A stretch of DNA of 35,046 bases from assembly GCA_003152075.1 (NCBI GenBank), contig PLZG01000037.1, positions 1 through 35,046 of the forward strand, written 5' to 3'. The translations under genes and the position numbers were made by a program. Below the pieces are notes generated by a model. It was given only the letters and a program-made list of their open reading frames with translations, was not told the DNA's origin and did no database searches. Position 1 is the first letter of the stretch; each line of letters starts with the position of its first letter. This DNA comes from a candidate division FCPU426 bacterium. GTDB taxonomy: Bacteria > Oederibacteriota > Muellerivitia > Muellerivitales > Muellerivitaceae. Below, in pieces: positions 4,199-35,046 of this stretch.

Positions 4199-4233
4199 AT
4201 TCACTAGTTGAACTGTCGTTTTGAGGAGCCTCG

Positions 4234-7200: not shown

Positions 7201-7431
7201 ATCGGCGGAATGCTGCCTATGGCCTTGGGATGGGGTGAGGGCGGGCAACAAGCGGCTCCCCTGGGCCGGGCGGTCATCGGCGGGCTTATCGGGGCGACCC
7301 TGGCCACCCTGGTCATCCTGCCCCTGGTTTTCGCGATGGTTCAAAAAATCAAGCCCGTCAAATCGCCTTCGCTTAATCCCAACGACCCCGAAAGCGGATA
7401 TTACGATGGGCAGAGGCGGTATAAGGGGTAG
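4234..7431 (+). CDS. RND efflux transporter permease subunit (AcrB-type fold), copy 1
   Basis: Inner-membrane proton-driven exporter of the resistance-nodulation-division superfamily, 1065 residues, the usual full length. It shows the first transmembrane helix, the porter region beginning DILPNL.IPIIYVAQPY, the TM2-TM6 block with GLMVLLFLRDPRSAF and GVLVDETTVTIENI, the duplicated porter half, and the TM7-TM12 block ending GRAVIGGLIGATLATLVILPL. By eye, the TM4 Asp-Asp pair of AcrB is Asp-Glu here, and the TM10 Lys position holds Glu (VTFAERS). The GTG start follows GAGGAG at 4223-4228 and matches the start of the paralogue at 8815. Substrate cannot be inferred. No membrane-fusion partner is encoded nearby; a TolC-like channel follows the second pump. 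Confidence 0.95.
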   Translation: MPIERIEKENWLVGWAMRRPLTVVVAVIGIVFCSFLALQQMKKDILPNLGIPIIYVAQPYTGMDASQMESYITYYFEYHFLYIAGIEHIESKNVQSAALIKLQFYPGTDMAQALSETVNYVNRAKAFMPAGMVAPFVVRFDSGGLSVGDVVVSSPKRTLAELQDFALNYVRPMFATLPGVSATPPFGAGQRTVVVSIDPAKLSRYHLSPEDVVLAVSRGNQPMPSGNIIKDGMYPVMSLNSVAGDIHELDELPLRVGTYPVVLLKDVATVKDGADLQVGYALVNGKRTIYLPLTKRSDASTLSVVDEVKRNLARFQSMVPEDVKVTYEFDQSGYVRRAISSLVLEGVLGAILTGLMVLLFLRDPRSAFIVVLNIPLALMGAILALWVTKQTINIMSLGGLALAIGVLVDETTVTIENIHTHRARGKSLAQASLDASSEMVTPLLMTMLCVLAVFIPSFFMSGVAHALFVPVALAVGFSMVASFFLSRTLIPVLSVWILKEKPGHTPMKKGIPFFSGFRENYARILGRSFPFRKLILGVYLAGTLGIILLLFGFFVGREIFPQVDTGQFQVRFRAPSGTLIDQTEAVVLKAIDIIKAEAGPENVESSLSYVGTMPDTAPVNMIHLWTSGPQEAVLQVTLKPQAHVRIEAFKETLRRKFAEKIPETEISFEPSSMVDRIMSLGANTPIEVAASGRDLAEVRAYAEKIRDALKGLPFLRDLQFGQDFDYPAVKVTGDRKKVGILGTTLAAIGTDLVPATSSSRFILPTFWADMKKGINYQVQVEVPPGTFQLKDIPNLPVSLNGGVIPLSRLADVQTGTTIGEYDRYNMQRVASVTANLSGLDLGRASQRILEALKPLESSKPRGVEVHFRGQMEALNNIFYELTLGLLLAIGVIFLLLAANFESASLALVVLSAIPAVLGGVGLTLFLSGTTLNLQSFMGAIMAVGIAVANAILLVTFAERSRLSGVGAWKAAVEGARGRLRPILMTSFAMIGGMLPMALGWGEGGQQAAPLGRAVIGGLIGATLATLVILPLVFAMVQKIKPVKSPSLNPNDPESGYYDGQRRYKG

Positions 7432-11800: not shown

Positions 11801-12021
11801 CGGGGATGCTTCCCCTGTCCCTGGGCTTGGGGGATGGCGGGCAGGAAACGGCCCCGCTGGGCCGGGCGGTTATCGGAGGACTGACGGGCGCGACCCTGGC
11901 CACCCTGGTCTTGCTTCCTCTGATTTTCGCGGTCATCCAAAAAAACAGGCCTGTCCGGTCGGCGTCGCTCAATCCCAATGATCCGGATAGCGAGTACTAC
12001 AAAGAGCGGAGGGCAAAATGA
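8815..12021 (+). CDS. RND efflux transporter permease subunit, copy 2
   Basis: A full-length paralogue (1068 residues) of the pump at 4234-7431, similar over its whole length; both begin with the shared block YEKENWLVGWALRRPL or a close variant. The porter, TM and docking regions match the RND superfamily. GILVDESTVTIENI carries Asp-Glu at the TM4 relay position, and VTFAERN places Glu at the AcrB Lys940 position, exactly as in copy 1. The GTG start has AGGGAG at 8804-8809. Its stop codon overlaps the ATG of the TolC-like gene (12018), so pump and channel are translationally coupled. The two pumps may act separately or as a heteromer; RND heteromers such as MdtBC are known, but the sequence does not decide. 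Confidence 0.95.
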   Translation: MSTDRYEKENWLVGWALRRPLTVVALVIAIVASSFMGLRQMSKDILPNLDIPIIYVAQPYGGMDAAQMESFLTYYYEYHFLYIAGIEHVESKNIQSMALIKLQFHPGTDMAQALAQTVQYVNRARAFMPVGILPPFVLRFDVGSAPVGDLVFTSDKRTLGELQDYALNYVRPLFSTLPGVSSLEPFGASQRTIVVSLDPQKLRDYHLSPQDVTLAVNQANQVQPSGNINMGSLYPIVSLNSVVSDIHQLDDVPLRTGTYPTVLLKDVAKVEDGTDLQTGYALVNGKRTVYLPVTKRADGSTLSVVKAVRDNLARFQNVLPEDVKISFEFDQSGYVRRAIGSLVLEGILGALLTGLMVLLFLRDPRSAFIVVANIPLALMGAVLALWVTKQTVNIMTLGGLALAIGILVDESTVTIENIHSHRDNGKSLARATLDASTEIVVPLLLNLLCVLAVFIPSFFMKGVAHALFVPLTLAVGFSMIGSFLLSRTLVPVLAVWTLKERHASSSLKGIPGRGTAGFLKFRANYMKMLGGIFPFRKIILLGYLLGTGGVIYLLFGFAVGREIFPRADKGQLQIRFRDPAGTWIDHTESTVLKALEIIKQTAGPENIESSVGYVGTMPPTYPINMVYLWTSGPQEAVLQVNMNRKAHLSMEKLKEALRKKFAEKLPETKISFEPSSLLDRIMSLGATTPIEVAVSGKNLVDVRAYAEKVKGALETLPFLRDIQYPQVFDYPTIKVTADRKKAGILGMTLAGIGNDLVPATSSSRYIVPCFWEDPRNGINYQVQVQVPPGMIKSMEDIRNLPVSLNGGEILLGGVADVQEGTSTGEFDRYNMQRVASLTANLSGKDLGRASQSVMNALKPLAASKPKGVEVNVRGQTADLNHIFSELTLGLGLAVVVIFLLLTANFESLALSLIVLSTVPAAIAGVGLALFLTHSTLNLESFMGTIMTIGVAVANAILLVTFAERNRLQQGNAWKAAVEGAQSRLRPILMTTLAMIAGMLPLSLGLGDGGQETAPLGRAVIGGLTGATLATLVLLPLIFAVIQKNRPVRSASLNPNDPDSEYYKERRAK

Positions 12022-13340
12022 GGGTTCGAATTATCCTGGGGCTTTTATTCCTAACTTGGACGGGAGCCGCGTTAGCTGCGGAAAAGACAACCGCGAAAGA
12101 AACCGCCCCGCAAGCCGTGGCCACGGCGGGTGAATTAACCTTAGATAAGATTTTGAGTTCCGCTGAGGAAGTGAACCCCGGGATCAAGTTTTCTCAGGCC
12201 ATGGAGAAAAAGGCTGAGGCTTCCGCCAGCGTCGTCAGTTCCTTTGACTATCCAAATCTTGATCTGTCGGCGTCGGACAGCATCGGTCTTTCGACTCCCT
12301 ATTACCCTACACCTTTTGCTTATGACGGGCTTCTGAATTCCTCCTACCGCAGATGGGCTGGCGCGGACCTGGTGATCCGTTGGAACATCCTGGATGTCAG
12401 CCGCTGGCACGATTTGGACCAGCACCATGAAAAAATTCACTCCGCCGAGGAAAATATCCGCGTGAAGCGGCTGGAGATTTACCAGCAGGCCCTTCAGCTT
12501 TACCTGCAGGCGTCCCTCTTGCGGGGCCAAAGGGAAGTTTGGGGGGATATCGCGGATAAGTCCAAGGAGATACTCAAGGTGGCCTCGGGTTTTGTCCATA
12601 CGGGCGAATATAACGAGGACAAGATGCTGGTCATTAAGATTGAAAAGGAAGAGGCTGAAACCGAGAGGGATAGCTTTGAGGAAAAATACCGAAAGACTTT
12701 GAGGAAGCTGGCCTTGCTCACCGGCCTGGACGACAAGGGGATGGAATGTCCTTTGCCTTCCGCCCTGGACGAGGGAATACTCCGGGTTATTCAAGAAGGT
12801 TCCTCAAGCCCTTACCTAACCTTTGCCCAGTCGGAAATAAAAGCCGCGAGGGCCACCTACGACAAGTCCTCAGCCGAAAGACTGCCAAAGCTTTTCGTCA
12901 TGGGAAGCGTCGGAGCTCTCGAGGGACTCCCTTTAGCCCCTCAAGATGATTATTCCGCATGGGTGGGGATCAACCTTCCGCTTTTTGACGGCTATCGAAT
13001 CGGCTCGGAGGAGAAGGAAAGAAAAGCCGAGATCAATGAAAAGGAAGAGCGTTTGAAAGATGCCCAATTGGATGTGGATGAATTGAACACCCAGTACGAC
13101 GAAAAAATTAACGTGGCTCACATCCGCATCCCGCTTTTGGAACAAGAGAGCAAGGACGCCAATCGGTCCTTCGTCGTGGCCCGGCAACGGTTCCTTTCCT
13201 ATCGGGAAACGGTGGTGATCGTACGGGAATCGTTGCGGGACCTGTCCTTTATCGAGACTCAAGTCAACGATTCCAAGATCGAGTTACTCACCGCCCTGGG
13301 TTTGAAGAGCTTCCTCAATGGTGGAACGGTTCCGAAGTAA
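12018..13340 (+). CDS. TolC family outer-membrane efflux channel
   Basis: A 440-residue outer-membrane factor with a signal peptide (residues 1-20, cleavage near ALAA/EKT) and the two-fold repeated TolC architecture. Each half has long alpha-helical hairpins rich in Glu/Lys/Ala (about 150-235 and 345-430) and short amphipathic segments that would form the barrel, such as WAGADLVIRWNILD and YSAWVGINLPLFDGYR. It would provide the exit duct for the RND pump, whose stop codon it overlaps in an ATGA arrangement. An adaptor protein is required by known tripartite systems but is not encoded here. There is no lipobox, unlike some NodT-type channels. Confidence 0.92.
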   Translation: MRVRIILGLLFLTWTGAALAAEKTTAKETAPQAVATAGELTLDKILSSAEEVNPGIKFSQAMEKKAEASASVVSSFDYPNLDLSASDSIGLSTPYYPTPFAYDGLLNSSYRRWAGADLVIRWNILDVSRWHDLDQHHEKIHSAEENIRVKRLEIYQQALQLYLQASLLRGQREVWGDIADKSKEILKVASGFVHTGEYNEDKMLVIKIEKEEAETERDSFEEKYRKTLRKLALLTGLDDKGMECPLPSALDEGILRVIQEGSSSPYLTFAQSEIKAARATYDKSSAERLPKLFVMGSVGALEGLPLAPQDDYSAWVGINLPLFDGYRIGSEEKERKAEINEKEERLKDAQLDVDELNTQYDEKINVAHIRIPLLEQESKDANRSFVVARQRFLSYRETVVIVRESLRDLSFIETQVNDSKIELLTALGLKSFLNGGTVPK

Positions 13341-13344
13341 TTTT

Positions 13345-13471
13345 GTCATTCCGAGGAGCAAAGCCGATAGGCTTGGTTTGCGACGTAGGAATCTCAGGTT
13401 TTTCCCGACGATTTTTAACTGAGATTGCCACGGCCCAAATCGCCCCGATTGGGGCTGGGCCTCGCAATGAC
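13345..13471. repeat. GTCATT...AATGAC palindromic repeat, copy 1
   Basis: The element is bounded by GTCATT (13345-13350) and AATGAC (13466-13471). Inside are the inverted pair AATCTCAG/CTGAGATT and the hairpin GCCCC-GATT-GGGGC. It starts GTCATTCCGAGGAG and ends GGCTGGGCCTCGCAATGAC, as does the copy at 17266-17403; a variant lies at 15508-15656. This class of intergenic repeat is widespread in environmental bacteria. It directly follows the TolC-like gene. Confidence 0.8.
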
Positions 13472-13511
13472 ATCAAACTGCGTCACTAACTGACACAGCC
13501 GACCCTTTCAG

Positions 13512-15679: not shown

Positions 15680-16351
15680 ATGGAATCTTTCCTTTACTCA
15701 ATCGACGTTGCAATATTCCGTTGGGTCAATCAGGGCTGGTCCAATCCCATCTTTGATAAGTTCTTTTCCTTCATCACCGATTACCACAACTTTCTCCCCC
15801 TAATAATTCCATTTATCCTTTATTCGCTCATCTGGGGCGGGGCAAAGGGGCGCTGGCTGGTTTTGAGCCTGGTCCTGGGAATTCTGATCGCGGACCAAGG
15901 TTCGGGAACTTTTCTTAAGTCCTGGGTTGAAAGGTTGAGGCCCTGTAACACGTTGGATGGGGTGTTGACACCGGTGGGAAAAAGCGAAGCCTATTCCTTT
16001 CCTTCCAGCCATGCTTCCAACATGGGGGCTTCGATGTATCTCTTATCAATGGCTTTCCGGCCTTGGACACCCCTTTTCTTGGTGATCGCCTTTTTAGTGG
16101 GCCTGTCCCGGATTTACCTTGGGCTTCACTATCCCTCTGACGTGTTGACGGGCTATGCTTTCGGAATTCTAGTGGGTTACTGCGTTTGGTTAGCGGTGGA
16201 AAAAATGAAAGTCGCAGTTAAGGATTCTTTTTCGCCCTCGCCCCTTGGTTTTGAGGGTACACAGGGGGTTTCCCTTGTGAACGCCAGCCGGGAGACGGGG
16301 AAATTAAAAGCCAAAGCGAAAGGTCGCAAAGTTGCCCGAAAAAAGCGCTGA
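15680..16351 (+). CDS. PAP2 family phosphatase (undecaprenyl-diphosphatase or lipid phosphatase-like)
   Basis: A membrane phosphatase of the PAP2 superfamily, 223 residues with about five or six transmembrane helices. All three signature motifs are intact: KSWVERLRP (Lys80 to Pro88), FPSSHAS (His111 acid/base) and SRIYLGLHYPSD (nucleophile-activating Arg and His150). Such enzymes recycle undecaprenyl diphosphate or dephosphorylate lipid A or other lipids; the sequence does not tell which. The last ~40 residues are odd: codons from about 16235 to 16304 are a copy of an intergenic repeat, followed by a very basic Lys/Arg tail. The 3' end overlaps the rsmI start by 20 bases. Confidence 0.93.
   Translation: MESFLYSIDVAIFRWVNQGWSNPIFDKFFSFITDYHNFLPLIIPFILYSLIWGGAKGRWLVLSLVLGILIADQGSGTFLKSWVERLRPCNTLDGVLTPVGKSEAYSFPSSHASNMGASMYLLSMAFRPWTPLFLVIAFLVGLSRIYLGLHYPSDVLTGYAFGILVGYCVWLAVEKMKVAVKDSFSPSPLGFEGTQGVSLVNASRETGKLKAKAKGRKVARKKR
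16235..16304. repeat. REP-like repeat copy inside the PAP2 coding sequence
   Basis: This segment matches 27093-27164: both run CCCTCGCC, CTTGG, a TTTGAGGGTACA box, an inner hairpin, GAA.GC and GGGAGA.GGG. The inner stem is CACA/TGTG here and CATA/TATG in the other copy, a compensatory base-pair change. In the gene it is translated as the linker SPSPLGFEGTQGVSL and onward. Confidence 0.7.
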
Positions 16352-17261
16352 AAAAAACGCCATCCAACCTTCCACGCTTTACCTGGTAGCCACCCCCATC
16401 GGCAACCTGGAGGACATGACTTTCCGGGCACTGAAGGTTTTGAAAGAAGTGTCCCTCGTCGCGGCGGAGGATACGCGCAATAGCCTGAAGCTCTTGACCC
16501 ACTTCGGTATCAAACCCGCCAAGCTGATTTCCTGCTTTGAGCATAATGAGGTGAAAAGAACCGAAGAGATTATCGCCGCGCTGGCCCGGGGGGAGTCGGC
16601 GGCCCTCATTACGGACGCGGGCATGCCGGGCATTTCCGACCCGGGTTTTCAGGTGGTCAAAGCGGTGGTAGAAAAGGGTTTTGCCGTGGTGCCTATCCCC
16701 GGGGCCTCGGCCCTTTTGGCGGCCCTGCCGGCTTCTGGTTTTTCAGCAACTCCTTTTACCTTCGTGGGATTCCTGCCTTCCAAATCGGGGGAACGGCAGA
16801 AAGTCCTAAATCAATTGAGCTCCTCCGAACACACGTTGGTTTTCTTCGAGTCACCCCACCGGATGAGAAACAGCTTGAAGGACATGATGAACGTCTTCGG
16901 CAACCGCCAGGGGGTGGTGGGGAGGGAACTGACCAAACTACACGAGGAATTCGTGCGGGGGAACCTGCAGGAACTTTGGAAGCACTTCAAAACGAATGAA
17001 CCCAAAGGCGAGTTTGTCATCATCGTGGAGGGCGGAGAGCATGTGGACCATTCTGACCAGGAAAAGTGGGTGGGAGTTTCCATCGCCGACCAGCTGGTTC
17101 AATTGATGAAGGAACAAAACCTCTCCAAAACCGAGGCGGTCAAGGCCGTCTGCAAAATGCGGGGCCTATCCCGGGAAGTGGTGTACCAGATCGCCACTGA
17201 AATCAAGGGAGCCCCCGGAGAAGACAATGAGTCGATGGATAGCGATGAGGGGATGGATTAA
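16332..17261 (+). CDS. rsmI: 16S rRNA (cytidine-1402-2'-O)-methyltransferase RsmI
   Basis: An SAM-dependent methyltransferase that modifies the ribose of C1402 in the decoding centre of 16S rRNA. Length is 309 residues. The tetrapyrrole-methylase-like fold shows LYLVATPIGNLEDMTFRAL, AAEDTRNS, ALITDAGMPGISDPG, VVPIPGASALLAALPASG and FFESPHR. A helical C-terminal extension runs from about 240 and ends in a short acidic tail. TTG 16332 is used because the conserved N-terminus begins within 20 residues and no ATG lies between; it overlaps the end of the PAP2 gene, implying coupled translation. A nested palindromic repeat follows the stop. Confidence 0.95.
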   Translation: MPEKSAEKNAIQPSTLYLVATPIGNLEDMTFRALKVLKEVSLVAAEDTRNSLKLLTHFGIKPAKLISCFEHNEVKRTEEIIAALARGESAALITDAGMPGISDPGFQVVKAVVEKGFAVVPIPGASALLAALPASGFSATPFTFVGFLPSKSGERQKVLNQLSSSEHTLVFFESPHRMRNSLKDMMNVFGNRQGVVGRELTKLHEEFVRGNLQELWKHFKTNEPKGEFVIIVEGGEHVDHSDQEKWVGVSIADQLVQLMKEQNLSKTEAVKAVCKMRGLSREVVYQIATEIKGAPGEDNESMDSDEGMD

Positions 17262-17265
17262 ATGT

Positions 17266-17403
17266 GTCATTCCGAGGAGTGGAGCTGATTGACGTGAATT
17301 GAGACAACGTAGGGGCGGCCCCCGTGGCCGCCCTTGGGCAGGCGCAGGGGCCTGCCCCTACAGTCTTTTCTTCAACCCGATTGAGGCTGGGCCTCGCAAT
17401 GAC
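17266..17403. repeat. GTCATT...AATGAC palindromic repeat, copy 3, carrying a second repeat inside
   Basis: The outer element runs from GTCATT (17266-17271) to AATGAC (17398-17403) and shares both ends with the copy at 13345. Its middle holds a different palindrome, listed separately at 17309-17361. It occupies most of the gap between rsmI and the M50-like gene. Confidence 0.8.
17309..17361. repeat. GTAGGGGC...GCCCCTAC palindrome nested in the outer repeat
   Basis: GTAGGGGCGGCC at the left and GGCCTGCCCCTAC at the right form imperfect terminal inverted repeats around a GC-rich centre with its own GGCC/GGCC symmetry. This family is seen in many environmental genomes as a stand-alone intergenic repeat. 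Here it is nested inside a different repeat family, which is consistent with insertion. Confidence 0.7.
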
Positions 17404-17431
17404 AGCTAAACCACTGATTGGACATTAGCCA

Positions 17432-25153: not shown

Positions 25154-27043
25154 ATGTGCGGAATCGTCGGCTATACCGGCCCAAAGCCAGCGGCCCCCCT
25201 ATTATTGAATGGGTTGGCGAAGCTGGAGTACCGCGGTTATGACTCGGCCGGTCTCGCCCTTTTAACCCCCCAGGGCCGCCTCAAGATTATTAAAAAAGCC
25301 GGGAAGATCGGAAATCTGGTCGCGGCGGTGAAAAAAGCCCACATTTCCCCCACCATTACCGCCGGCATCGGCCATACCCGCTGGGCTACCCATGGCCATC
25401 CCACGGACCGGAACGCCCATCCCCATACGGACTGCGGCGGGGAAGTGGCGGTGGTTCACAACGGGATTGTGGAAAATTACGAAAAACTAAAAAAACAACT
25501 CCAGGCCAAGGGGCATCACTTCAAGTCCCAGACGGATTCGGAGGTTCTGGCCCATTTGATTGAGGAAGGCCTAAAACATCAGTCGGCAGTCCACAGTCGG
25601 CAGCCGGCAGGTAAGGCCAAGGCATGGGTGGAAGCGGTGCGGTGGGCCCTATCCCAAATTGAGGGCACCTATTCGGTGGTGGCGGTTTACGAGAGGGAGC
25701 CGGAAAGCCTGATCGGCGCCCGCGCGGGTGGGGGAGGGTTGGTGGTGGGGTTGGGCAAGGACGAGAATTTCCTGGCCTCGGATGTTCCGGCCCTTTTGGC
25801 CCACACCCGCCGGGTTTATTACCTGGACGACAATGAAATGGTCATCCTTTCGCCATCAGGCACCCGCGTGGTCAGTGTCTTGAACGGCAAACCCATTCCC
25901 AAGAAGGTTTCGGAAATCCAGTGGTCCGCCGAGCAGGCCGAAAAGGGGGGCTACCCCCACTTCATGCTCAAGGAAATCATGGAACAACCCCGGGCCTTGG
26001 AAGACACCTTCAACAGCCGGTTGGACCTGGGGACGGGGGAAGTTTTACTGGAAGGGAAGTTTTGGTCCTCGCCCTTCGTGCGCGAATTCAAGAAGATCAC
26101 CCTGCTGGCCATGGGCACTTCCTTCTACGCGGCCATGGTGGGGAAGTTCCTGCTGGAAAAATACCTGCGCGTTCCCGTGGAAGTGGACAACGCCTCCGAG
26201 TTCCGCTACCGGGACCCGATTATCGGCAAGGACACCCTGGCCATCGTTATTTCCCAAAGCGGGGAAACGGTAGATACGCTGGTGGCCCTGCGGGAGGCCA
26301 AGGCCAAGGGCGCCAAGATTGCCGCCATTTGCAACGTCATGGGAAGCTCGGTCACCCGGGAGGCGGACGGGGTTTTGCTGACGAGGGCGGGGCCGGAAAT
26401 CGGCGTGGCTTCCACCAAGGCTTTTACCACCCAATTGGGGGCCCTTTGGCTTTTAACCCTTCATTTGGCCAGGGTTCGCAAGGCCATGCCGCCAGCCGAG
26501 TTAAAGAGGAAGGCCAGGGAATTGGCCCGGCTTCCCATGATGGTCGGCGCGCTCTTAAAGCAACGCAAGGCCGTTGAAAAGCTCGCGAAACTTTACGCCA
26601 AGTACTTCAACTTTTTATATATCGGCCGGGGAATCCAGTACCCCATCGCCTTGGAAGGGGCCCTGAAGCTGAAGGAAATTTCCTACATCCACGCGGAAGG
26701 CTACCCGGGCGGCGAAATGAAACATGGGCCGATCGCCCTGATCGACTCGAAGATGCCGGTGCTAGCCATCGCCCTGAAATCCTCAGGCGTTTACGAGAAG
26801 ATTTTGAACAACATGGCCGAAGTGAAGGCCCGTTCCGGGAAATTAATCGCGCTCGTGGAAAAGGGCGACAAGTTGGCGGGGAAGAAGGCCGACCATGTCA
26901 TTGAAATCCCCGCGATATCCGAGGACCTTTCCCCGTTGCTTTCGGTGGTTCCGCTTCAGCTATTGGCCTATGAAATAGCGAAATTGAAACACCGGGAGAT
27001 CGACCAGCCCCGCAATTTGGCCAAAAGCGTGACGGTGGAATAA
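25154..27043 (+). CDS. glmS: Glutamine-fructose-6-phosphate aminotransferase GlmS
   Basis: GlmS makes glucosamine-6-phosphate from fructose-6-phosphate and glutamine, the first step toward UDP-GlcNAc for peptidoglycan and LPS. Cys2 of MCGIVGYTG is the glutaminase nucleophile; RGYDSAGLA and GHTRWATHG complete the N-terminal domain. Two SIS isomerase domains follow (LLAMGTSFYA, SQSGETVDT, then YIGRGIQYPIALEGALKLKEISYIHAEGY in pieces), ending DQPRNLAKSVTVE. At 629 residues it is about 20 longer than typical, and the excess is in the glutaminase domain where tandem CAGTCGGCAG repeats are translated. ATG 25154 has GAGG at 25144-25147. Confidence 0.97.
   Translation: MCGIVGYTGPKPAAPLLLNGLAKLEYRGYDSAGLALLTPQGRLKIIKKAGKIGNLVAAVKKAHISPTITAGIGHTRWATHGHPTDRNAHPHTDCGGEVAVVHNGIVENYEKLKKQLQAKGHHFKSQTDSEVLAHLIEEGLKHQSAVHSRQPAGKAKAWVEAVRWALSQIEGTYSVVAVYEREPESLIGARAGGGGLVVGLGKDENFLASDVPALLAHTRRVYYLDDNEMVILSPSGTRVVSVLNGKPIPKKVSEIQWSAEQAEKGGYPHFMLKEIMEQPRALEDTFNSRLDLGTGEVLLEGKFWSSPFVREFKKITLLAMGTSFYAAMVGKFLLEKYLRVPVEVDNASEFRYRDPIIGKDTLAIVISQSGETVDTLVALREAKAKGAKIAAICNVMGSSVTREADGVLLTRAGPEIGVASTKAFTTQLGALWLLTLHLARVRKAMPPAELKRKARELARLPMMVGALLKQRKAVEKLAKLYAKYFNFLYIGRGIQYPIALEGALKLKEISYIHAEGYPGGEMKHGPIALIDSKMPVLAIALKSSGVYEKILNNMAEVKARSGKLIALVEKGDKLAGKKADHVIEIPAISEDLSPLLSVVPLQLLAYEIAKLKHREIDQPRNLAKSVTVE
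25580..25610 (+). repeat. Tandem CAGTCGGCAG repeat inside glmS
   Basis: CAGTCGGCAG at 25580-25589 and 25594-25603, with the variant CAGCCGGCAG at 25601-25610. It lies in frame within the glutaminase domain, adding a SAVHSRQPAG-type linker. It resembles tandem CAGTCGGCAG-type repeats of bacterial intergenic DNA. Confidence 0.6.
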
Positions 27044-27092
27044 TCCCAATAAGGCAATTGTAACTCCGCACTTAACAAGCCACCTCAATAAA

Positions 27093-27235
27093 CCCTCGCC
27101 TCTTGGCTGTTGTTTGAGGGTACATAGGGGAATTTTCCTATGAATGCTCTCAGGGAGATGGGTAGGGTGAGGGGGTTGGAAGTTGCCCAAACCACCCTCA
27201 TCTTAGCCTTTCCCCCTCAAGGGAGAAGGGGGAAA
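27093..27235. repeat. Composite REP/BIME-like repeat, long form, reverse orientation
   Basis: Read on the minus strand this has the same order as 4106-4198: CCTTCTCCCTTGAGGGGG, a GATGAGGGTGG box, a CCCTCACCCTACCC box, a hairpin section, and GGCGAGGG. The hairpin section is about 50 bp longer and includes CATAGG...CCTATG; its plus-strand sequence matches the copy in the PAP2 gene. The rest of the 306-bp gap 27044-27349 is A/T-rich with a TTAATTAATTAA stretch and no gene. Confidence 0.75.
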
Positions 27236-27349
27236 AACAAGGCGAACGGCTTTTATTAAAAGGATTTGCCAAGTGCATAGATCCGATATTTTTTTGTCGA
27301 TTAATTAATTAAGTTCAGGATGTTCTTCCAGCAACCGGATGAGGTGCTT

Positions 27350-27996
27350 TTAAAACCCGAAGATTTTTTTAGCCACCCCGCCCGCGATATCCCCGATAGC
27401 TTTATTGACGCCATCATCTTTTTGCTGTTTGACTTCAGCCTTCGGGGAATCGGCGTCCTTCTTGGGCGCAGGATTACTCGACGCGGAAACATCCGCCGAA
27501 GCTGGGCTTTTGGAAGCGGTGGTCTGGGTACCAATTCCTTTTTCGGGAATTGGCACTCTCAAACCTTGCACTTCAGCTTGTGGCTTTTGGGCAGAGGTAT
27601 TGACGGATTACGTTTCCGGTTTCTTCGGAGCCGACGCGCTCGCGGCCGGTTCGGTTCTCATCGAAGGGGACTGCCCTGGGGAAGCACCCGATTTGGCGTC
27701 AACCAAAAGGGTTTGAGAACCTGGGGCAGGGGCTCCTTTATCTTCCGAAGCTTTGGTGTTGGAAGATACAAGCTCAATCGGTTTTGGGTTTTCAGCCGCC
27801 GGCTTTCTTTCTGCCCAATGGACGGGCCATAAGGCCATCCCTTTTATCTTCCCGGTCACCGATCCGGGTCTTCCTGGCCTGGGAACTTGTCTCAAGTCAA
27901 TATCCCTCTTCCGGTCCCTTATGGTCCTGGAAACGAGGTCGAGGGGGTTCGGGTATCCCTACTGACCAATGCCAATAGCAACATAGCTTTCCTCAT
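27350..27996 (-). pseudogene. Broken gene for a secreted Pro/Ala/Lys-rich protein
   Basis: On the minus strand, ATG 27996 opens a signal-peptide-like MRKAMLLLALV. A frame change near 27960 leads into a frame reading PNPLDLVSRTIRDRKRDI and KGMALWPVHWAE, then low-complexity Ala/Pro/Ser/Lys segments. A single in-frame TAA at 27608-27610 interrupts it. The same frame continues past the stop (codons ending with GGVAKKIFGF) to 27350, so the halves clearly belonged to one reading frame of about 215 codons. I do not recognise the family; the YPNPLDL start vaguely recalls secretion or pilus-assembly periplasmic proteins, without support. Sequencing error could explain one lesion but less easily both. 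Confidence 0.6.
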
Positions 27997-28133
27997 CAAT
28001 TTCGGGATTGACTTTTAAAAGGCAAAAACCCTTTGTTTTCAAGGTTTTATGGGATTAAACACCACTTTTGGTTGGGAAAGTCTTTTCCAACCACCGCCCC
28101 TAGCGTTATTGGCCCCAAAAACCCCGTTTAACC

Positions 28134-28162
28134 TTGACAGTCCTTTGGGCAAGGTTTATATT
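28134..28162 (+). promoter_or_regulatory. Sigma70-type promoter of leader A / NHL lipoprotein 1
   Basis: TTGACA (28134-28139), a 17-bp spacer and TATATT (28157-28162). The same hexamers with the same spacing occur at 31234-31262. Upstream, TGGTTGGGAAA/TTTTCCAACCA around 28069-28093 forms a hairpin of unknown role. Confidence 0.85.
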
Positions 28163-28474
28163 TTGCCAATTGTTTGAAAGTTTCCCCGGTTTTTCAATGT
28201 TTTTGTTGAAGTTTGGCCAGGAAAACAGGGGGGTTGAACGTAAATTTCATGTGAATGGGGTTTACGGTCTTCGACCCAAGCGGATTTGTGACCACAACCG
28301 TTTGAAGTTGGGGAAAATACCGAGGGTGGCGCTTTTTTGGGAAGCGGTCACCTCTCGAATTGATCGTTGGAAGTAGGGTTTTTCAAAAGCCCTATGGCAG
28401 TCAGTTCCGGGTTTGGCATTCTTCCCTGAGGATTGTCGGCCCAAAAAAGTTTCACCAATAAGGAGAGAGAAGAA
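28163..28474 (+). promoter_or_regulatory. Leader A: long conserved, structured 5' untranslated region
   Basis: About 305 bases between the promoter and the ATG at 28475, related along its length to leader B (31263-31572). Identical blocks are 28278-28308 and 28322-28347. Predicted helices: CGTAAA/TTTACG; an extended hairpin closed by CTTC/GAAG with AAGCGG/CCGTTT and TTGT/ACAA; GAG...CGCTT/AAGCG...CTC around a TTTTGGG loop; TAGGG/CCCTA; and an ATTCTTCCCTGAGGAT hairpin before the AAGGAGAGAG ribosome-binding site. It does not resemble a riboswitch class I know. A cis-regulatory or mRNA-stabilising RNA is inferred. Confidence 0.65.
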
Positions 28475-29401
28475 ATGAAAAAGATATTTTTGGGAGTGTT
28501 TTTGGCTTTAGCTTCGGTGGTTTTGGTACAGGTTGGTTGTGATCCTAAAGCGACCCCTGCTTCCGCCACGGTTCCGGTTGGGCCTTCATTAGCAGCCACC
28601 AAGAGTAATTTTAACACGACGGTAAACCAGCCTTATGGCATGTGCATGGATGCCTCTGGAAATCTCTATGTGGCCGAAAGAGACAACATGGACATCGTCA
28701 AGATTACCCCCGCCGGCGTCAAAACCGTTTTTGCGACCGGTTTTATCGGGCCTAGGGATATTCAACTTTCCCCCTCGGGCGTCTTTTATGTGGCGGATGA
28801 AGGGCCGCAAAGCAGCTGTTGCAGCGGCGGTTTACTCAAAAAAATTGTCGGTGGCGTTGTTTCAACTATCGCCGGACCCTGGGCTGGTCCCCGGGCGCTG
28901 GCCATTGACGGAGCTGGAAACGTTTATGTGTCCGACAATTTCGGCACTAAGATCTATAAGGTCACTGCGGGCGGCGCGATTTCCACCTTCGCAGGTACCG
29001 GCACTAGAAGTTATGTCGACAATACCTCAACTGCTACCGCAACTTTCAATTACCCCTGCGGTATCGCGGTAACCAAGGATGGAAACACGGTTTATGTGGT
29101 TGACCGGAATAACTATGCCATCAGAAAAATTACGGGTGGAATGGTTTCGACATTCCAGTCGGGTGGGTGGAGTTGGCCGGAAATGGCCGCGCTTGATGCC
29201 CAAGGAAACCTTTATGTGACGGATAATGGCAATTCCCTTTGGAAGGTCACCCCAGGGACAAGAACTATGGTGACCAACGGCTTTAGCTGCCCCATGGGAG
29301 TTTTAGTGGTCGGCAATCCTAAGGCCGGCGGCAAGATTTTTGTGTCGGATAATTGCTCTACCCCGAACAAAATCTGGTCGGTAAATTATCCTTCCTTCTA
29401 A
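28475..29401 (+). CDS. NHL-repeat beta-propeller lipoprotein 1
   Basis: A 308-residue exported protein with a signal sequence ending VLVQVGC, a probable lipoprotein site although the -3 Gln is atypical. After a short linker (DPKATPASATVP), residues about 45-305 are NHL repeats of the pattern PYGMCMDASGNLYVAE, GPRALAIDGAGNVYVSD, YPCGIAVTKDGNTVYVVD. This predicts a beta-propeller of about six blades at the cell surface or periplasm, usually a binding scaffold. ATG 28475 is chosen because AGGAGAGA precedes it; the frame stays open upstream without a site. It is monocistronic: its own promoter and ~300-nt leader, and a strong terminator after it. The first 34 residues are identical to the paralogue at 29699. 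Confidence 0.85.
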   Translation: MKKIFLGVFLALASVVLVQVGCDPKATPASATVPVGPSLAATKSNFNTTVNQPYGMCMDASGNLYVAERDNMDIVKITPAGVKTVFATGFIGPRDIQLSPSGVFYVADEGPQSSCCSGGLLKKIVGGVVSTIAGPWAGPRALAIDGAGNVYVSDNFGTKIYKVTAGGAISTFAGTGTRSYVDNTSTATATFNYPCGIAVTKDGNTVYVVDRNNYAIRKITGGMVSTFQSGGWSWPEMAALDAQGNLYVTDNGNSLWKVTPGTRTMVTNGFSCPMGVLVVGNPKAGGKIFVSDNCSTPNKIWSVNYPSF

Positions 29402-29421
29402 AAGTAGTAGTAAAATTTTTT

Positions 29422-29456
29422 AAAGCCCGCAGGGGTTTCCCTGCGGGCTTTTTTTT
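29422..29456 (+). terminator. Intrinsic terminator of NHL lipoprotein 1
   Basis: A 13-bp perfect stem AAAGCCCGCAGGG/CCCTGCGGGCTTT with loop GTTT and eight Ts. Confidence 0.93.
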
Positions 29457-29533
29457 GTTTTCTAAGCCTCGAAAAGGTTAAAATAGGCTATTATTAGGCA
29501 ATGGATAAGGCCTTGGGTTTCCATTTAGTGGAA

Positions 29534-29698
29534 TTTGGGGAACCTATCGAGGGGGCGCTTTTTTGGGAAGCGGCCTAAGCTCGTTTAGTTTAAAGGTTGA
29601 GGAGTTTGAAAAAGTTGAAGGCTGTAAAATCTGGGTTTGGCGTTCTTCCATGAGGAATCCCGGCCCGATAAAGCTTCACCAATAAGGAGAGAGAAGAA
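29534..29698 (+). promoter_or_regulatory. Leader C: shortened copy of the conserved leader
   Basis: It matches only the 3' half of leaders A and B: TTGGGGAA, the GGCGCTTTTTTGGGAAGCGG hairpin (29554-29573) with outer CGAG/CTCG arms, GGGTTTGGC, the TTCTTCCATGAGGAA hairpin and the TTCACCAATAAGGAGAGAG site. The 5' half with the AAGCGG hairpin is absent. A TATTAT box is at 29489-29494 without a clear -35. Confidence 0.6.
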
Positions 29699-30613
29699 AT
29701 GAAAAAGATATTTTTGGGAGTGTTTTTGGCTTTAGCTTCAGTGGTATTGGTACAGGTTGGTTGCGATCCTAAGGCAACGCCCGCATCCGCCACAGTTCCT
29801 GCTGCGGTTAATTTCCCTAGTACAACGGGAACTGTTTTGCGCACACCTCCAAGTCCCTATGGAATAGTTCTGGATCCCGCAGGCAATCTTTTTGTTGTTT
29901 CCAGGTGGAATGGCAATGTCCTCAAGTACATGCCGGGGTTTGGTGCTCCAGTTACACTTGCGAGCGGCCTAAACTATCCAGCCGCCATAGTTCGTGATAC
30001 CGCTGGAAACCTTTATGTGGGGGATGAGAACGGAAAAATATTCAAGATTACCCCATCAGGTGTTCAATCGATCTTCGCGTCTGGGTTTAATTATCCACGC
30101 GGATTAGCGATGGACGGGGCCGGTAATATTTATGTCGCGGACGATTATTCCTACGGAATTTATAAAGTGACAACGGCGGGAGTCGTTACCAATATCGCGA
30201 ATCCCCATGGCAACAGTTCTCAAACCGACGGGCCCGTGGCCTCGGCGGGGTTCTACTATCCCCAAGGCATCGCGGTGACCAAGGATGGTTCCACGGTCTA
30301 TGTGGGTGATTATTGGTACCGGGTTTCAAAAATTAATGGTGGCCAGGTTACAACCTTGACCAGCTCCCTTGGCTATCCCCAGTACCTCACCTGGGATACC
30401 ACCGGCAACCTGATCGTATCGGATAATACAAATGGGCTAGTTCAACTCAATGTGACTACGAACGTCATAACCCCCCTTTCCACTTTCACCACCAATCCAA
30501 GGGGAGTCGTTGTCGTGGATAAGAATACCTTGATCGTGGCTAATTCGAATGGGAGATATAACGCAGCCAATCAGCCTATTTACAAGATTACTTTATCTTC
30601 ATTCGTAAAATAA
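29699..30613 (+). CDS. NHL-repeat beta-propeller lipoprotein 2
   Basis: A 304-residue paralogue of the preceding gene. Signal peptide and linker (first 34 residues) are identical in protein; in those codons the two genes differ at ten bases, all synonymous third positions, and the first 13 codons are identical in DNA. The propeller region is much more diverged but keeps NHL blades such as YPAAIVRDTAGNLYVGD, YPRGLAMDGAGNIYVAD, YPQGIAVTKDGSTVYVGD and NPRGVVVVDKNTLIVAN. Surface binding is likely; the ligand is unknown. The upstream leader is a shortened version of the shared leader; a perfect terminator follows. Confidence 0.85.
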   Translation: MKKIFLGVFLALASVVLVQVGCDPKATPASATVPAAVNFPSTTGTVLRTPPSPYGIVLDPAGNLFVVSRWNGNVLKYMPGFGAPVTLASGLNYPAAIVRDTAGNLYVGDENGKIFKITPSGVQSIFASGFNYPRGLAMDGAGNIYVADDYSYGIYKVTTAGVVTNIANPHGNSSQTDGPVASAGFYYPQGIAVTKDGSTVYVGDYWYRVSKINGGQVTTLTSSLGYPQYLTWDTTGNLIVSDNTNGLVQLNVTTNVITPLSTFTTNPRGVVVVDKNTLIVANSNGRYNAANQPIYKITLSSFVK

Positions 30614-30626
30614 TTATTGTTTTGTG

Positions 30627-30658
30627 AAACCCGCGGGGATTTCCCCGCGGGTTTTTTT
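30627..30658 (+). terminator. Intrinsic terminator of NHL lipoprotein 2
   Basis: A perfect stem AAACCCGCGGGGA/TCCCCGCGGGTTT with a minimal loop, then a run of seven Ts, built like the terminator at 29422. Confidence 0.93.
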
Positions 30659-31233
30659 ATTTTTAGCCTTCTTCCGGATTTTCACGATACCCTTAATTAA
30701 ATAGTTATATTGGATAGAAGAATCGGATTTTTCAATATTGGCTTAGGTTTTTGACCCCAACCCGTCCCCGACTGTCTTCCCTTTAATCCTTTCGGTAGAA
30801 GTTGTCGTTGTCTTTTTGAGTTAAAAGTCATGTGGCTCGATTAAGCCTTGAGAAAATCTTCACCCCGTAAATCAAACCAGAAGGAATTGCTCGGTCCTTT
30901 CAAAATGAGAGCCTCTATTCTGGAGGTGTGGTTTTGGCCCCCTCTTAGTTAGGCAGTCATCATGGCCAGAAAAATCACTTTTTTATCACCCTGGGTTTGA
31001 CCCGCCGATTCCCTTGGGAAAGGGACAAAACTAGGGAAAAGGGAAACCGGAAAACCTCCAATTATTTGAGTATGGTTTCATTTTGAAAACTATTGAAATA
31101 TATACCCTTCTGAGGCCTCTGAAATAGGCCTCATATTGCTGAGTTTTTGGTTTGACCCACTAGAAATTGATGGAATAAGGCCTTTGACCCACATGGGGTA
31201 GGGTTGTTTTAGCTTTAAAATTGGTTTTTAAGC
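30659..31233. other. Gene-free stretch with four TTTGACCC words
   Basis: No convincing reading frame on either strand. The 8-mer TTTGACCC occurs four times in the same direction (30750-30757, 30996-31003, 31151-31158, 31183-31190). GAGGCCT-CTGAAAT-AGGCCTC near 31112-31134 is a perfect 7-bp hairpin. It could be an upstream control region for the barrel gene, or decayed DNA. Confidence 0.4.
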
Positions 31234-31262
31234 TTGACAGTCCCAGAGGCAGGCTTTATATT
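31234..31262 (+). promoter_or_regulatory. Sigma70-type promoter of leader B / outer-membrane barrel gene
   Basis: TTGACA (31234-31239), a 17-bp spacer and TATATT (31257-31262), identical in hexamers and spacing to 28134-28162. The spacer sequences are similar as well (GTCC at the start, TT before the -10). Confidence 0.87.
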
Positions 31263-31572
31263 TTGGCCAATTGTGTTTGGGCTTTCCTCAGGTTTTTCAG
31301 CGTATTTATGGTTGTTTGGCCGGGAAAACAGGGGGTTTGAACGTAAATTCTATGTGAATAGGGTTTATGGTCTTCGACGCAAGCGGATTTGTGACCACAA
31401 CCGTTTGAAGTCGAGGAATTTGTCGAGGGTGGCGCTTTTTTGGGAAGCGGCCCACGCTCGTATTGTTCTTCGGTTGTAGGGGTTTTCAATAACCCTAGAG
31501 CAGTGAAGTTCGGGTGTGGCACTCTTCCCTGAGGAGTGCAGGCCCAAAAAAAAGCTATAAGGAGAGAGAAGC
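31263..31572 (+). promoter_or_regulatory. Leader B: long conserved, structured 5' untranslated region
   Basis: About 300 bases ahead of the barrel gene, homologous to leader A. Identical blocks are 31381-31411 and 31425-31450, and the same helices can be drawn. In the last hairpin, C-G here corresponds to T-A in leader C at the same position (GCACTC...GAGTGC here), and TTTATG replaces TTTACG in the first helix while keeping a G-U pair. AAGGAGAGAG precedes the ATG as in the other two leaders. Confidence 0.65.
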
Positions 31573-33135
31573 ATGAAGAAAGTACTGGTCTTGATGGTGC
31601 TGTTTGTAATGGCTATCGGCGCGAAAGTCGCGTCGGCGGATGCCATTATCGCCGCTCAGCAGGCTGATGGCCGTATCGTTAACAGTGTCGACGTGATTTT
31701 CGCGGGATACGTTAACGAAATTTTGAATTACAAAAACACGGTTGATTTCCGCTTGAACGGTGCCGGTGGCGGCTTTGGAGCTGGCGCTGGTGAGTGGGGC
31801 GGAATCATCGATGGAAAGCACGATTCCATCGGAACGATTGGTGTCTACATCAATCGCCCATCAACAGACGTTTCTTTTAACGGCGAACCGACCCTTTGGG
31901 GCCCGGTTGCCGGTGTCGCGGCTTGGACCGGAACGGGCGTTGGAGTTCCTACCGCTATTAGTGGTGGTGTTTGGATCGGTGGAGCTGGTTCACAAGTAGG
32001 TACTGTGGCTAATGTGAATACTGCTTATCCCTTAATGAATGGTTTAATTCCTACCCCCAATAACAAAGTCGATGTTATGTGGGCTACCACCTCCGGTGAT
32101 TCCATGAATTTTGGCGTTGGTTTGAGCTATGGCGATAACCAAGCCCTTAATACTCCGGGTGCTGGCGGAAACGCGGTTGTTTCGAACAGCCCCGCGACTG
32201 CGTTTACTAATATTGCGGACACTTCCAATACCTATGCCCGTAACCTTGCCTTGAATGTCGGCTTGGGTTTGAAAAATATGGGTTTCAGCGTGTTCGATGT
32301 CCATGCTGGATATAACTACGGAACCTTTGCCGTGAGCGATGTCACAAGTGCAGCTTTGCCATCGGTACCCGCGGTTCATAATTACAGCATTCAGGACAAT
32401 GGGATTTCCTCCATTACCTTGGGCGCAATGGCCCAAAGCGACATGGACAAGGACAGCAACCTCCGCATGTTCTTGGACGGCGCTTTGAACAGCTTTGGCA
32501 CCAAGGCTTCTTTCATGGATTCCGCCACTAACGACGGTTATCATGCTGCTGTCGCCGGGGATGCGGATTATGAGAACACCACCAGCTGGAGCCAGTTCGT
32601 CTTGAACGCTGGTTTTGGTTGCAACCATTCGGTGAACGATGGAGCTGCCGTCGTCGGAAGCAGCCTCTTGGGAACCTTTCAGTCACAGGGAACTTCCGCG
32701 ACAGAAAGCTTGCAACAAGGGACTGTGAATGCTAACGCTTCGGTGCCGACCACCTTTACCGGTGCTAATTCCATTAACCTCTCCTCAATCAACATTTCGT
32801 GGGGCGCCAATGTGGATGCCAAGGTTTCGGACTGGTTGAAAGTCCGGGCCGGTATCCGAAAGAGCATCTTCAATCGCTCTGGCTATCACGTTACTGTCGC
32901 GGGTGGTACCCCCGTCGTGACGACCACCTACACGGGCACCGCGGACGCTCTCGCGGCTGCTGGCGCTTCCTTCAGCACCGGTTTTGGCATTCACTGGCAA
33001 AACTTCGTGTTGAACACCAACGTGACCGCGGCCTCGTTGGAAAGCTCGATCGCGAACGTTGCTCCTGGCAATGGAATCTTCTTTGCCGGAAACATCTTGA
33101 CGGTTGCCGAGGCCGATCTCGGATATGCGTTCTAA
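31573..33135 (+). CDS. Predicted outer-membrane beta-barrel (porin-like) protein
   Basis: A 520-residue protein with a signal peptide (MKKVLVLMVLFVMAIGAKV, cleavage near ASA/DA) and then alternating short amphipathic strands rich in Gly, Asn, Ser and aromatic residues. Examples are VDFRLNGAGG, LALNVGLGLKNMGFSVFDVHAGYNYG and WLKVRAGIRKS. The chain ends DLGYAF, with a terminal Phe, as expected for BAM-recognised barrels. I recognise no specific porin family. The strong promoter, ~300-nt leader, excellent ribosome-binding site and strong terminator suggest an abundant monocistronic envelope protein. Confidence 0.72.
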   Translation: MKKVLVLMVLFVMAIGAKVASADAIIAAQQADGRIVNSVDVIFAGYVNEILNYKNTVDFRLNGAGGGFGAGAGEWGGIIDGKHDSIGTIGVYINRPSTDVSFNGEPTLWGPVAGVAAWTGTGVGVPTAISGGVWIGGAGSQVGTVANVNTAYPLMNGLIPTPNNKVDVMWATTSGDSMNFGVGLSYGDNQALNTPGAGGNAVVSNSPATAFTNIADTSNTYARNLALNVGLGLKNMGFSVFDVHAGYNYGTFAVSDVTSAALPSVPAVHNYSIQDNGISSITLGAMAQSDMDKDSNLRMFLDGALNSFGTKASFMDSATNDGYHAAVAGDADYENTTSWSQFVLNAGFGCNHSVNDGAAVVGSSLLGTFQSQGTSATESLQQGTVNANASVPTTFTGANSINLSSINISWGANVDAKVSDWLKVRAGIRKSIFNRSGYHVTVAGGTPVVTTTYTGTADALAAAGASFSTGFGIHWQNFVLNTNVTAASLESSIANVAPGNGIFFAGNILTVAEADLGYAF

Positions 33136-33156
33136 ATTCTTAGAATAGTTCGTAAG

Positions 33157-33190
33157 ACCCCGCCTCGGTTTCGAGGCGGGGTTTTTTTTT
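33157..33190 (+). terminator. Intrinsic terminator of the barrel gene
   Basis: An 11-bp stem ACCCCGCCTCG/CGAGGCGGGGT with loop GTTT and nine Ts. Confidence 0.94.
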
Positions 33191-33228
33191 GCCTTGGGAA
33201 GTCAGTTTTAAAATTCTTACGGTTTCTC

Positions 33229-33257
33229 TTGAACAGGTTGAATCGTCTAACAATTAT
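33229..33257 (+). promoter_or_regulatory. Possible promoter of the coiled-coil protein gene
   Basis: TTGAAC (33229-33234), a 17-bp spacer and AATTAT (33252-33257), a four-of-six -10 match, 29 bases before the start codon. Confidence 0.35.
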
Positions 33258-33286
33258 CAATCGTTCCGGTTGGAAGGAAAAATTTG

Positions 33287-34138
33287 ATGACCACGGTATT
33301 TTTCAAAAGAAAGTTTTTACTTATTCTTAGCTATTGTGGTTTGTTATTGTCAGGCTCTGGAAATCTTTGGGCACAAGTCGACTCAGCAACAGTAGTTCCA
33401 CCTAGACCAACGGCCTCCTTAAACCCAGAATATTCACCAACTCCCACGGCTACCTTCTCTTATGAAGAGGGAAAGAAAAAATTAGAACTGGAACGCCTTG
33501 AGTTGGAAAATGAAAAACTCAAGTTTGAAATAGAAAAACTAAAAGCCCAGACAACCAAAACGACGACGGAAGAAAAGAAAAACGATAAAAAAGAAATGAT
33601 GTTGTACCAGGAGAAATGTTCTGAAAAGGCCGAGGGTTTGGCAAAGGATAACAAGGATAAGGCCAATTTGTTAATCTTGGATCTGGTCAACGGAGAGGCG
33701 TGGAATAAGGGGGTTCGTTACCACCTTAATGATATCTATTCCATGGCGGAGGACCAAAAAATAGAATTCAAAAAATACTTGGATAAAAGGGACATGAACG
33801 GTGACGACCGGAACCGTTATGTGATTCGAAATGTGTCTCTCTTACGTTATAACCAACGGTCAAGGGGGATTTTAACTTTTAAAGCGCCTGTCAAAGACGA
33901 GGATTATCGAGTTCTTTCCATTGACGGTGTTTCTTTTGCCTCCTCCATTGGCGATATCAGAAGCGCCCATCAGAATATTTATTTTAATTACGAAGGGGAA
34001 GGGAATCGGGATAAATTGAAGTTGTTAAAGTATAAGTTCGCTAAGGATTTTTTCAGTTTTTCTGATAAGTTGGAATATGGTTTTGATAAGGACGGGAAGC
34101 TGTTGGAAATAAAATTTGGAGTTTTGGACGAAAACTAG
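33287..34138 (+). CDS. Hypothetical exported protein with coiled coil
   Basis: A 283-residue protein of no family I recognise. A signal peptide (hydrophobic stretch LLILSYCGLLLSG, cleavage near LWA/QVD) is followed by a short Pro/Thr spacer. A heptad-rich coiled coil follows at about 60-85 (KLELERLELENEKLKFEIEK), then a Lys/Glu-rich segment and a soluble C-terminal domain (about 110-283) with alternating strands and helices, e.g. RNVSLLRYNQRSRGILTFKAP. ATG 33287 is preferred over the in-frame TTG 33284; GGAAGGAA lies about 8 bases upstream. It precedes yajC by 52 bp, so the two may be cotranscribed. Confidence 0.7.
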   Translation: MTTVFFKRKFLLILSYCGLLLSGSGNLWAQVDSATVVPPRPTASLNPEYSPTPTATFSYEEGKKKLELERLELENEKLKFEIEKLKAQTTKTTTEEKKNDKKEMMLYQEKCSEKAEGLAKDNKDKANLLILDLVNGEAWNKGVRYHLNDIYSMAEDQKIEFKKYLDKRDMNGDDRNRYVIRNVSLLRYNQRSRGILTFKAPVKDEDYRVLSIDGVSFASSIGDIRSAHQNIYFNYEGEGNRDKLKLLKYKFAKDFFSFSDKLEYGFDKDGKLLEIKFGVLDEN

Positions 34139-34190
34139 TTGGGAGTGATCCCAATTAAACACGGAAAAATAATTTACGGAGGATTTAACA

Positions 34191-34520
34191 GTGGATACAG
34201 CATTCGCGCAAACAACCCAAGTGGCAACTAAGGCGGTCCCGGGGCCGTCCTCTCCCATGTCGGCAATTATTTCCTTCGCGCCATTCCTGGCCATCATGGT
34301 CTTGTTTTACTTCTTGATGATTTACCCCCAGGGAAAAGAGAAGAAAAAAAGGGAAGAAATGCTGACTGGAATTCAAAGGGGGGACCGAGTTTTGACCCGA
34401 GGCGGTCTTTATGGAACGGTGGCGGACATCAAAGACCATATTTTAATCCTTAAAATAAACGAAAATAACAAGGTTGAGATCGACCGGGCCTATATTGAAA
34501 CGGTTCATAAAGTTTCGTAA
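34191..34520 (+). CDS. yajC: Preprotein translocase subunit YajC
   Basis: YajC is a small accessory of the SecDF-YajC-YidC holotranslocon in the inner membrane. The 109-residue protein has one transmembrane helix (about 26-45, ending FYFLMIYPQ), the basic segment KEKKKREEM and the conserved cytoplasmic part LTGIQRGDRVLTRGGLYGTV, VEIDRAYIE. The N-terminus is longer and Pro-rich compared with many YajC proteins. GTG 34191 follows GGAGG at 34179-34183. In many genomes secD, secF or tgt are adjacent; none is present here. Confidence 0.93.
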   Translation: MDTAFAQTTQVATKAVPGPSSPMSAIISFAPFLAIMVLFYFLMIYPQGKEKKKREEMLTGIQRGDRVLTRGGLYGTVADIKDHILILKINENNKVEIDRAYIETVHKVS

Positions 34521-34556
34521 TTCATAATCACCAAGGTTTTTATTGCACGAAAAGAC

Positions 34557-34714
34557 TGACAAATAAGGTTTGGTTAATTCAAGAGTCCCAAGCCGCCAAT
34601 TAGTTATTGCTTTATTCACGATATGAAATTTTAATTATGAAACATGACAATTTAGATGAACCAATATTTGTCAGAATGCTTAAGGAAATAAAGATCCCAT
34701 TTGTGAATAAAGCA
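34557..34714. other. Interleaved inverted repeats between yajC and the HTH-receiver gene
   Basis: Two perfect inverted pairs occur in interleaved order: TGACAAATA (34557-34565) with TATTTGTCA (34665-34673), and TGCTTTATTCAC (34608-34619) with GTGAATAAAGCA (34703-34714). As RNA this is a pseudoknot topology or two mutually exclusive folds. A 41-codon frame (34637-34762) overlaps it but has no Shine-Dalgarno, so I do not call it a gene. Confidence 0.45.
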
Positions 34715-34789
34715 TTGGGCAAAAGTTTTTTGCGATATAATCCCTTCATCAATAAGTTTTAATTATTTAAACAGGCATAGGCGGGAATT

Positions 34790-35046
34790 ATGACTGAAAT
34801 CATGACGGCCCAGGAACTTTCAACCTACCTCAAGATCACCACGACCACTATTTATAAATTGGCCCAACAAGGTGAAATCCCTTCCTTCAAAATCGGTAGT
34901 GAATGGCGTTTCAAAAAAGAATTAGTGGATCGCTGGCTTGAAAATGGCGCGGGCCACGCACCCAAAAAAGTCCTGGTCGTGGATGACGAACCCTCTATTT
35001 GCGAGCTATACAAGAGGGCCCTGGACCGGAAAAAATACACCGTGGA
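34790..35046 (+). CDS. Excisionase-type DNA-binding domain fused to response-regulator receiver (3' truncated by window)
   Basis: The start of a gene that runs off the window, 85 complete codons visible. Residues about 4-52 form a BldC/excisionase-like winged helix-turn-helix: MTAQELSTYLKITTTTIYKL, then GEIPSFKIGSEWRFKKELVDRWL. From residue 61 a receiver domain begins (KKVLVVDDEPSICELYKRAL), with the acidic Asp pair of the phosphorylation site pocket; the phospho-acceptor Asp is beyond the edge. In this order the DNA-binding domain is N-terminal, the reverse of most response regulators. AGGCGGG precedes ATG 34790. It may be a DNA-binding response regulator or a hybrid with further domains. 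Confidence 0.85.
   Translation, partial: MTEIMTAQELSTYLKITTTTIYKLAQQGEIPSFKIGSEWRFKKELVDRWLENGAGHAPKKVLVVDDEPSICELYKRALDRKKYTV

Follow-up and report, generated by a model that had tools for sequence, protein, structure and literature searches.

The 5' untranslated region (UTR) of the Escherichia coli ompA mRNA is a growth-rate-regulated mRNA stabiliser, and strong Shine-Dalgarno (SD) sequences stabilise this transcript even in the absence of a start codon (PMC7509114). The element described here is a leader that precedes the gene for a predicted outer-membrane beta-barrel protein in a candidate division FCPU426 bacterium (contig PLZG01000037.1, positions 1 to 35,046; this whole stretch of 35,046 nucleotides is termed the window). 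In common with the E. coli ompA 5' UTR, it is structured, carries a strong SD box and belongs to the mRNA of an outer-membrane protein, the barrel nature of which is predicted. Unlike its counterpart, it is longer (~300 nt), possesses an invariant sequence core, lacks a consistently predicted 5'-terminal stem-loop and bears no sequence relation that we could find. Furthermore, E. coli ompA mRNA is acted on by Hfq, whereas no Hfq is detectable here. We infer that the FCPU426 leader works most like the ompA 5' UTR; family membership is not claimed.

Two further systems invite comparison. With the RNA thermometer of Yersinia ompA (PMC8245352), the leader shares the placement of a regulatory structure within the untranslated region before an outer-membrane protein gene; in contrast to the thermometer, its SD box is not consistently sequestered. 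With orphan RNA candidates known from comparative genomics (for example PMC2864571, PMC8632094), it has in common an intergenic position, conservation, compensatory changes and a location upstream of one gene class. Unlike these RNAs, it occurs in a single FCPU426 family. The window has no match at the gathering threshold to any of the 4227 families of Rfam 15, in line with the original statement that no known riboswitch class fits, and a relaxed scan (E up to 1) yielded nothing within the leaders. Judged by sequence against Rfam, and not against each published motif list, the leader represents a novel RNA family, although its kind, the structured cis-acting leader, is known; its sequence invariance is unusual. 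As a regulatory RNA family it would come from a candidate phylum. To our knowledge, there is no cultured model for FCPU426.

With moderate confidence we propose that the element is a lineage-specific cis-acting 5' UTR of the outer-membrane barrel mRNA that would raise or protect expression. Its parts and the gene it serves are the following, G000 denoting the genome of the window, G001 that of a congener, and G003, G005 and G007 further members of a comparison set of eight genomes of the same family:

31234..31262, + strand: barrel promoter TTGACA-17-TATATT, 11/12 consensus matches
31269..31572, + strand: barrel leader (5' UTR), start inferred ~7 nt past the -10 box
31342..31369, + strand: hairpin D, 12 bp, GNRA tetraloop GUGA (GAAA in G001)
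31375..31413, + strand: hairpin A, pairing in 98% of cells, a single compensatory pair, absent in G005
31424..31460, + strand: hairpin B, loop UUUUGGG, invariant core
31462..31505, + strand: hairpin M
31519..31539, + strand: hairpin C, CUCUUCCCUGAGGAG, loop CCCUG, in all leaders
31559..31571, + strand: SD box AAGGAGAGAGAAG, an invariant 13-mer
31573..33135, + strand: predicted outer-membrane beta-barrel protein, 520 aa, orthologues in 4 genomes
33154..33185, + strand: terminator after the barrel gene, 14-bp stem, 9 G-C pairs, T tail

DNA and covariance-model searches located the leader in four other genomes, i.e. in five of the eight genomes of the family, and in none of the 37 other genomes of phylum FCPU426. 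The postulated restriction to one lineage is therefore borne out at the level of a single FCPU426 family. In all five genomes the leader lies directly upstream of the barrel orthologue, and no barrel homologue was found in the three leaderless family genomes, one of which is 99% complete. Since the leader always precedes a barrel orthologue and the barrel is missing where the leader is missing, the leader belongs to the barrel gene: judging from this distribution it is native to that gene, and the copies found before genes for NHL-propeller lipoproteins (NHL1 and NHL2) are particular to G000. The notion of a leader for envelope genes in general thus holds for the barrel, before which it stands in every genome that has it, but not beyond it, as the NHL copies are duplicates confined to G000. 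Relatives of the barrel protein itself were recovered only by searching the genomes, none appearing in a scan of the contig collection. A scan of the same collection for exact matches to a 20-mer of hairpin B also returned G001 and G005; its five matches in unrelated phyla were dismissed as chance, with little match beyond the seed and no hairpin C.

On sequence comparison the leader is conserved far better than the fast-changing barrel protein that follows it. In the pair G000 and G001, identity amounts to 94% over the matched leader as against 25% for the barrel proteins, and the orthologues as a whole share 25-38% identity with the protein of the window. Hairpin B is 100% identical in G000, G001, G003 and G005, which represent three genera, and the same three genera have identical copies of UAUUGUUCUUC after hairpin B and of nearly all of hairpin C. 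The SD 13-mer occurs seven times across the eight family genomes, every time at a leader; the hairpin-C 13-mer is likewise leader-specific with one exception, a match inside a coding gene of G002. Conservation is strongest far 3' of the promoter and at the SD box. The invariance of the loops suggests sequence-specific recognition. The usual pattern is inverted in this locus, the untranslated leader being more conserved than the protein after it.

The element was first noticed because a second copy stands before NHL1, and a third was thought to exist:

28134..28474, + strand: promoter and leader copy before NHL1, promoter at 28134-28162
28239-28266 (D), 28272-28310 (A), 28321-28357 (B), 28416-28436 (C) and 28460-28472 (SD), + strand: parts of the NHL1 leader
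29531..29698, + strand: partial, degraded leader before NHL2, with B at 29548-29583 and SD at 29684-29696

The identical blocks reported between the NHL1 and barrel leaders are exact, namely 28278-28308 = 31381-31411 (31 nt, mismatches at both edges) and 28322-28347 = 31425-31450 (26 nt, also bounded by mismatches). The likeness extends from end to end as claimed: positions 28171-28448 and 31274-31551 align without gaps over 278 nt at 82% identity, and the local alignment from the -35 box to the SD box scores 350, the highest score among 200 dinucleotide shuffles being 30. TTGACA-17-TATATT indeed precedes both genes, these being the sole two 11/12 promoter matches in 27000-35046, and NHL1 bears no relation to the barrel protein (best BLASTP E = 0.9). 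As to the third leader, a copy before NHL2 does exist, but it comprises only the 3' half, is degraded and has neither a promoter nor hairpin D or A. NHL1 and NHL2 share 45% identity and an identical signal peptide; this remnant probably arrived with the duplication of the NHL gene. The three copies in G000 all lie inside 3.4 kb, and each related genome has one. With so few copies, and with phages, plasmids and viral contigs yielding none, a mobile repeat was rejected.

Evidence for pairing comes from these five genomes with their seven leader copies and was assessed by shuffle controls and not by formal R-scape tests; we regard the covariation as good but not formal. Both full leaders fold more stably than shuffled sequences (z scores of -2.7 and -4.3, the latter for the barrel leader). 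Changes that keep pairs, on which the proposal of a structured RNA was built, are present in hairpins D and M: in D, a comparison of three leaders shows four of the 12 pairs with both partners changed, and in M this applies to four of the seven upper-stem pairs. Hairpin D is paired in 97% of cells, its values being reached by 7/500 shuffles, and sliding the partner strand drops pairing to 25-57%. Support from the alignment for pairing in hairpin A is weak. Hairpin B, which can be extended by a further outer stem (31413-31419 with 31465-31471), is uninformative on pairing in most leaders because it is invariant there; in NHL1 it re-pairs in a shifted register, and in G007 the stem is rebuilt and the loop kept. 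In G005 and G007 the C hairpin is followed by another of its type containing UUCCCUGAG, which gives the C element the look of a binding module that can be counted. The extra C-like hairpin CUUUUCCCUGAG lies just 5' of the SD box (L009 1640-1680 in G005; L010 1583-1617 in G007).

In the proposed mechanism, transcription would run from the near-consensus promoter through the leader into the barrel gene and end at the terminator. The leader would fold into a series of hairpins in the order D, A, B, M, C, after which an A-rich linker leads to the strong, invariant SD box. By analogy with the ompA 5' UTR, the hairpins may shield the mRNA from decay and may present the ribosome-binding site in a manner that leads to high-level protein synthesis. 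Hairpins B and C could be recognised sequence-specifically by some factor or by each other. In G000, promoter and leader would have been copied before NHL1, so that the lipoprotein is expressed in the same way, and NHL2 would have arisen by a subsequent duplication of the NHL1 region; an expression cassette of promoter and folded leader would thereby have been reused for an unrelated envelope gene.

Several established modes of control do not fit. From the barrel promoter to the start codon there is no terminator-like site, the strong terminator being located after the gene, and attenuation is therefore unlikely. A riboswitch or attenuator was rejected for the lack of a terminator and of a SD-sequestering pattern shared among the homologues, and a thermometer because SD pairing is not conserved, the box being almost fully unpaired in G003 and mixed in the others. 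Pairing of CUCUUCCCU of hairpin C with the SD box, which by eye covers 8/9 positions, was set aside, as the predicted folds share no SD pairing. Models for Hfq (PF17209) and CsrA (PF02599) matched in none of the eight family genomes and did match in control genomes, so that classical control by Hfq-dependent small RNAs or by the Csr system is unlikely in this family. This leads to the concrete question of what recognises hairpins B and C.

Some observations weigh against a cis-acting leader of the ompA type. No consistent hairpin is predicted in the first ~25 nt of the transcripts, the start of which is a predicted one. The barrel assignment depends on a low-confidence AlphaFold model (predicted local distance difference test, pLDDT, 54), which consists mostly of beta strands and has as its best PDB match the pentameric OmpA of Bdellovibrio (template modelling score, TM, 0.4); the protein matches no Pfam or NCBIfam family, and its start resembles a signal peptide. 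The structural comparison comprises only five genomes and seven copies, with shuffle controls that fall short of formal R-scape analysis, and the NHL2 remnant folds no better than shuffles (z +0.43). Finally, a pure stabiliser would need no invariant 50-nt sequence, and regulation may therefore be the larger part of the function.

The alternative that survives best, although we consider it unlikely, is a two-state regulatory RNA, in which an extended hairpin B (GAGGAA pairing with UUCUUC) and hairpin C, each folded locally, would alternate with a joint B x C duplex around hairpin M. The trigger would be a ligand, a protein, temperature or an RNA, and the output translation or decay. RNAalifold in fact picks the B x C duplex, which takes up 0.94-0.99 of the ensemble in G000, G003 and G005 and 0.49 in G001, and the two folds are ~1-4 kcal/mol apart. 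No shuffle out of 1000 attains the duplex energy of -41.5; of 2000 random hairpins that retain the flanks and loop, 14 do. In prefix folding B stays local until C has been transcribed. On the other hand, four B x C pairs in a row are disrupted in NHL1, whose ensemble contains none of the duplex, G007 keeps C local, and both retain the local hairpins. The B x C pairing shows no compensatory change, B and C barely varying elsewhere, and no expression platform is apparent, there being no terminator and no consistent coupling to SD accessibility. Since NHL1 and G007 lose the duplex but keep B and C as local hairpins, the local fold is ranked as the more conserved one and the switch remains a minority reading. 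The more far-reaching version is a shade more doubtful still. Here the leader would found a new class of bistable 5' UTR: the hyperconserved hairpins B and C, complementary in both loops and stems, would alternate between separate hairpins and a joint long-range duplex and thereby tune an outer-membrane protein in a bacterium in which neither Hfq nor CsrA is detectable.

It is improbable that the conserved element acts as DNA, that is, as a cassette of strong promoter and regulator-binding site that has been copied or gene-converted and whose transcribed part is passive. Such a cassette would account for the promoter being conserved and copied along with the leader (it is kept at the same place in G001, G003 and G005 and reads TTGACT..TATAGT in G007) and for all G000 copies lying so close together. 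It is contradicted by the compensatory changes in D and M, by the rebuilding of the stem in B and by conservation that peaks well downstream of the promoter and at the SD box. Even less probable is a leader that serves as the source of a processed small RNA acting in trans on other mRNAs. The several stable hairpins would be in line with this, as would the invariance of loop and hairpin sequences in B and C, a feature to be expected of a seed region, but there is no terminator within the leader, Hfq is undetected in the family, and the leader was not found away from the barrel gene except in the NHL copies.

A short leader peptide can practically be dismissed: two copies do contain open frames of 80 and 81 codons, but their start codon is the TTG of the -35 box itself, which the predicted transcript excludes, all frames of the last 300 nt are interrupted by stops in all five leaders, the M region changes in length by non-multiples of three, and the differences are not concentrated at third codon positions. 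In 28230-28348 we count 6, 3 and 4 differences at codon positions 1, 2 and 3 instead of the approximate 6, 2 and 4 given originally, and over 28171-28390 the numbers are 15, 16 and 9, so that third positions show no excess.

The NHL genes and their terminators are arranged upstream of the barrel gene as follows:

28475..29401, + strand: NHL1, NHL-propeller lipoprotein (Pfam NHL, E 7.5e-21)
29422..29451, + strand: terminator between NHL1 and NHL2
29699..30613, + strand: NHL2, duplicate of NHL1
30626..30655, + strand: terminator after NHL2

NHL-type proteins have expanded in G000, where stretches matching the NHL-propeller protein number 38; the remaining well-assembled genomes of the family have 7-12. 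In G001 and G003 the leader has glmS as its upstream neighbour; in G000 the NHL genes stand between glmS and the leader, and other genes occupy this place in G005 and G007. A protein of ~270-300 aa is encoded after the barrel gene in all five genomes. G007 has a barrel paralogue without a leader on contig C27.

The window contains further repeats. A 50-nt repeat, TTTGAGGGTACAYAGGGG..., at 16250-16299 and 27113-27162 forms a hairpin with paired changes between the copies, one of which lies inside the 3' end of the open reading frame 15680-16351 and the other immediately behind glmS. In appearance the repeat is a small palindromic mobile element. Two intergenic families, CCCTCACCCTACCCTCTCCC... 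(1685-1721 and 4165-4201) and TGTCATTCCGAGGAG...CTCGCAATGACA (13338-13384 with 13444-13477; 17259-17305 with 17376-17409), look like palindromic repeats of the repetitive extragenic palindromic (REP) or miniature inverted-repeat transposable element (MITE) type. The ~1065-codon genes at 4234-7431 and 8815-12021 share long repeated DNA segments of 70-79% identity and apparently arose when a gene for a large membrane protein was duplicated in tandem.

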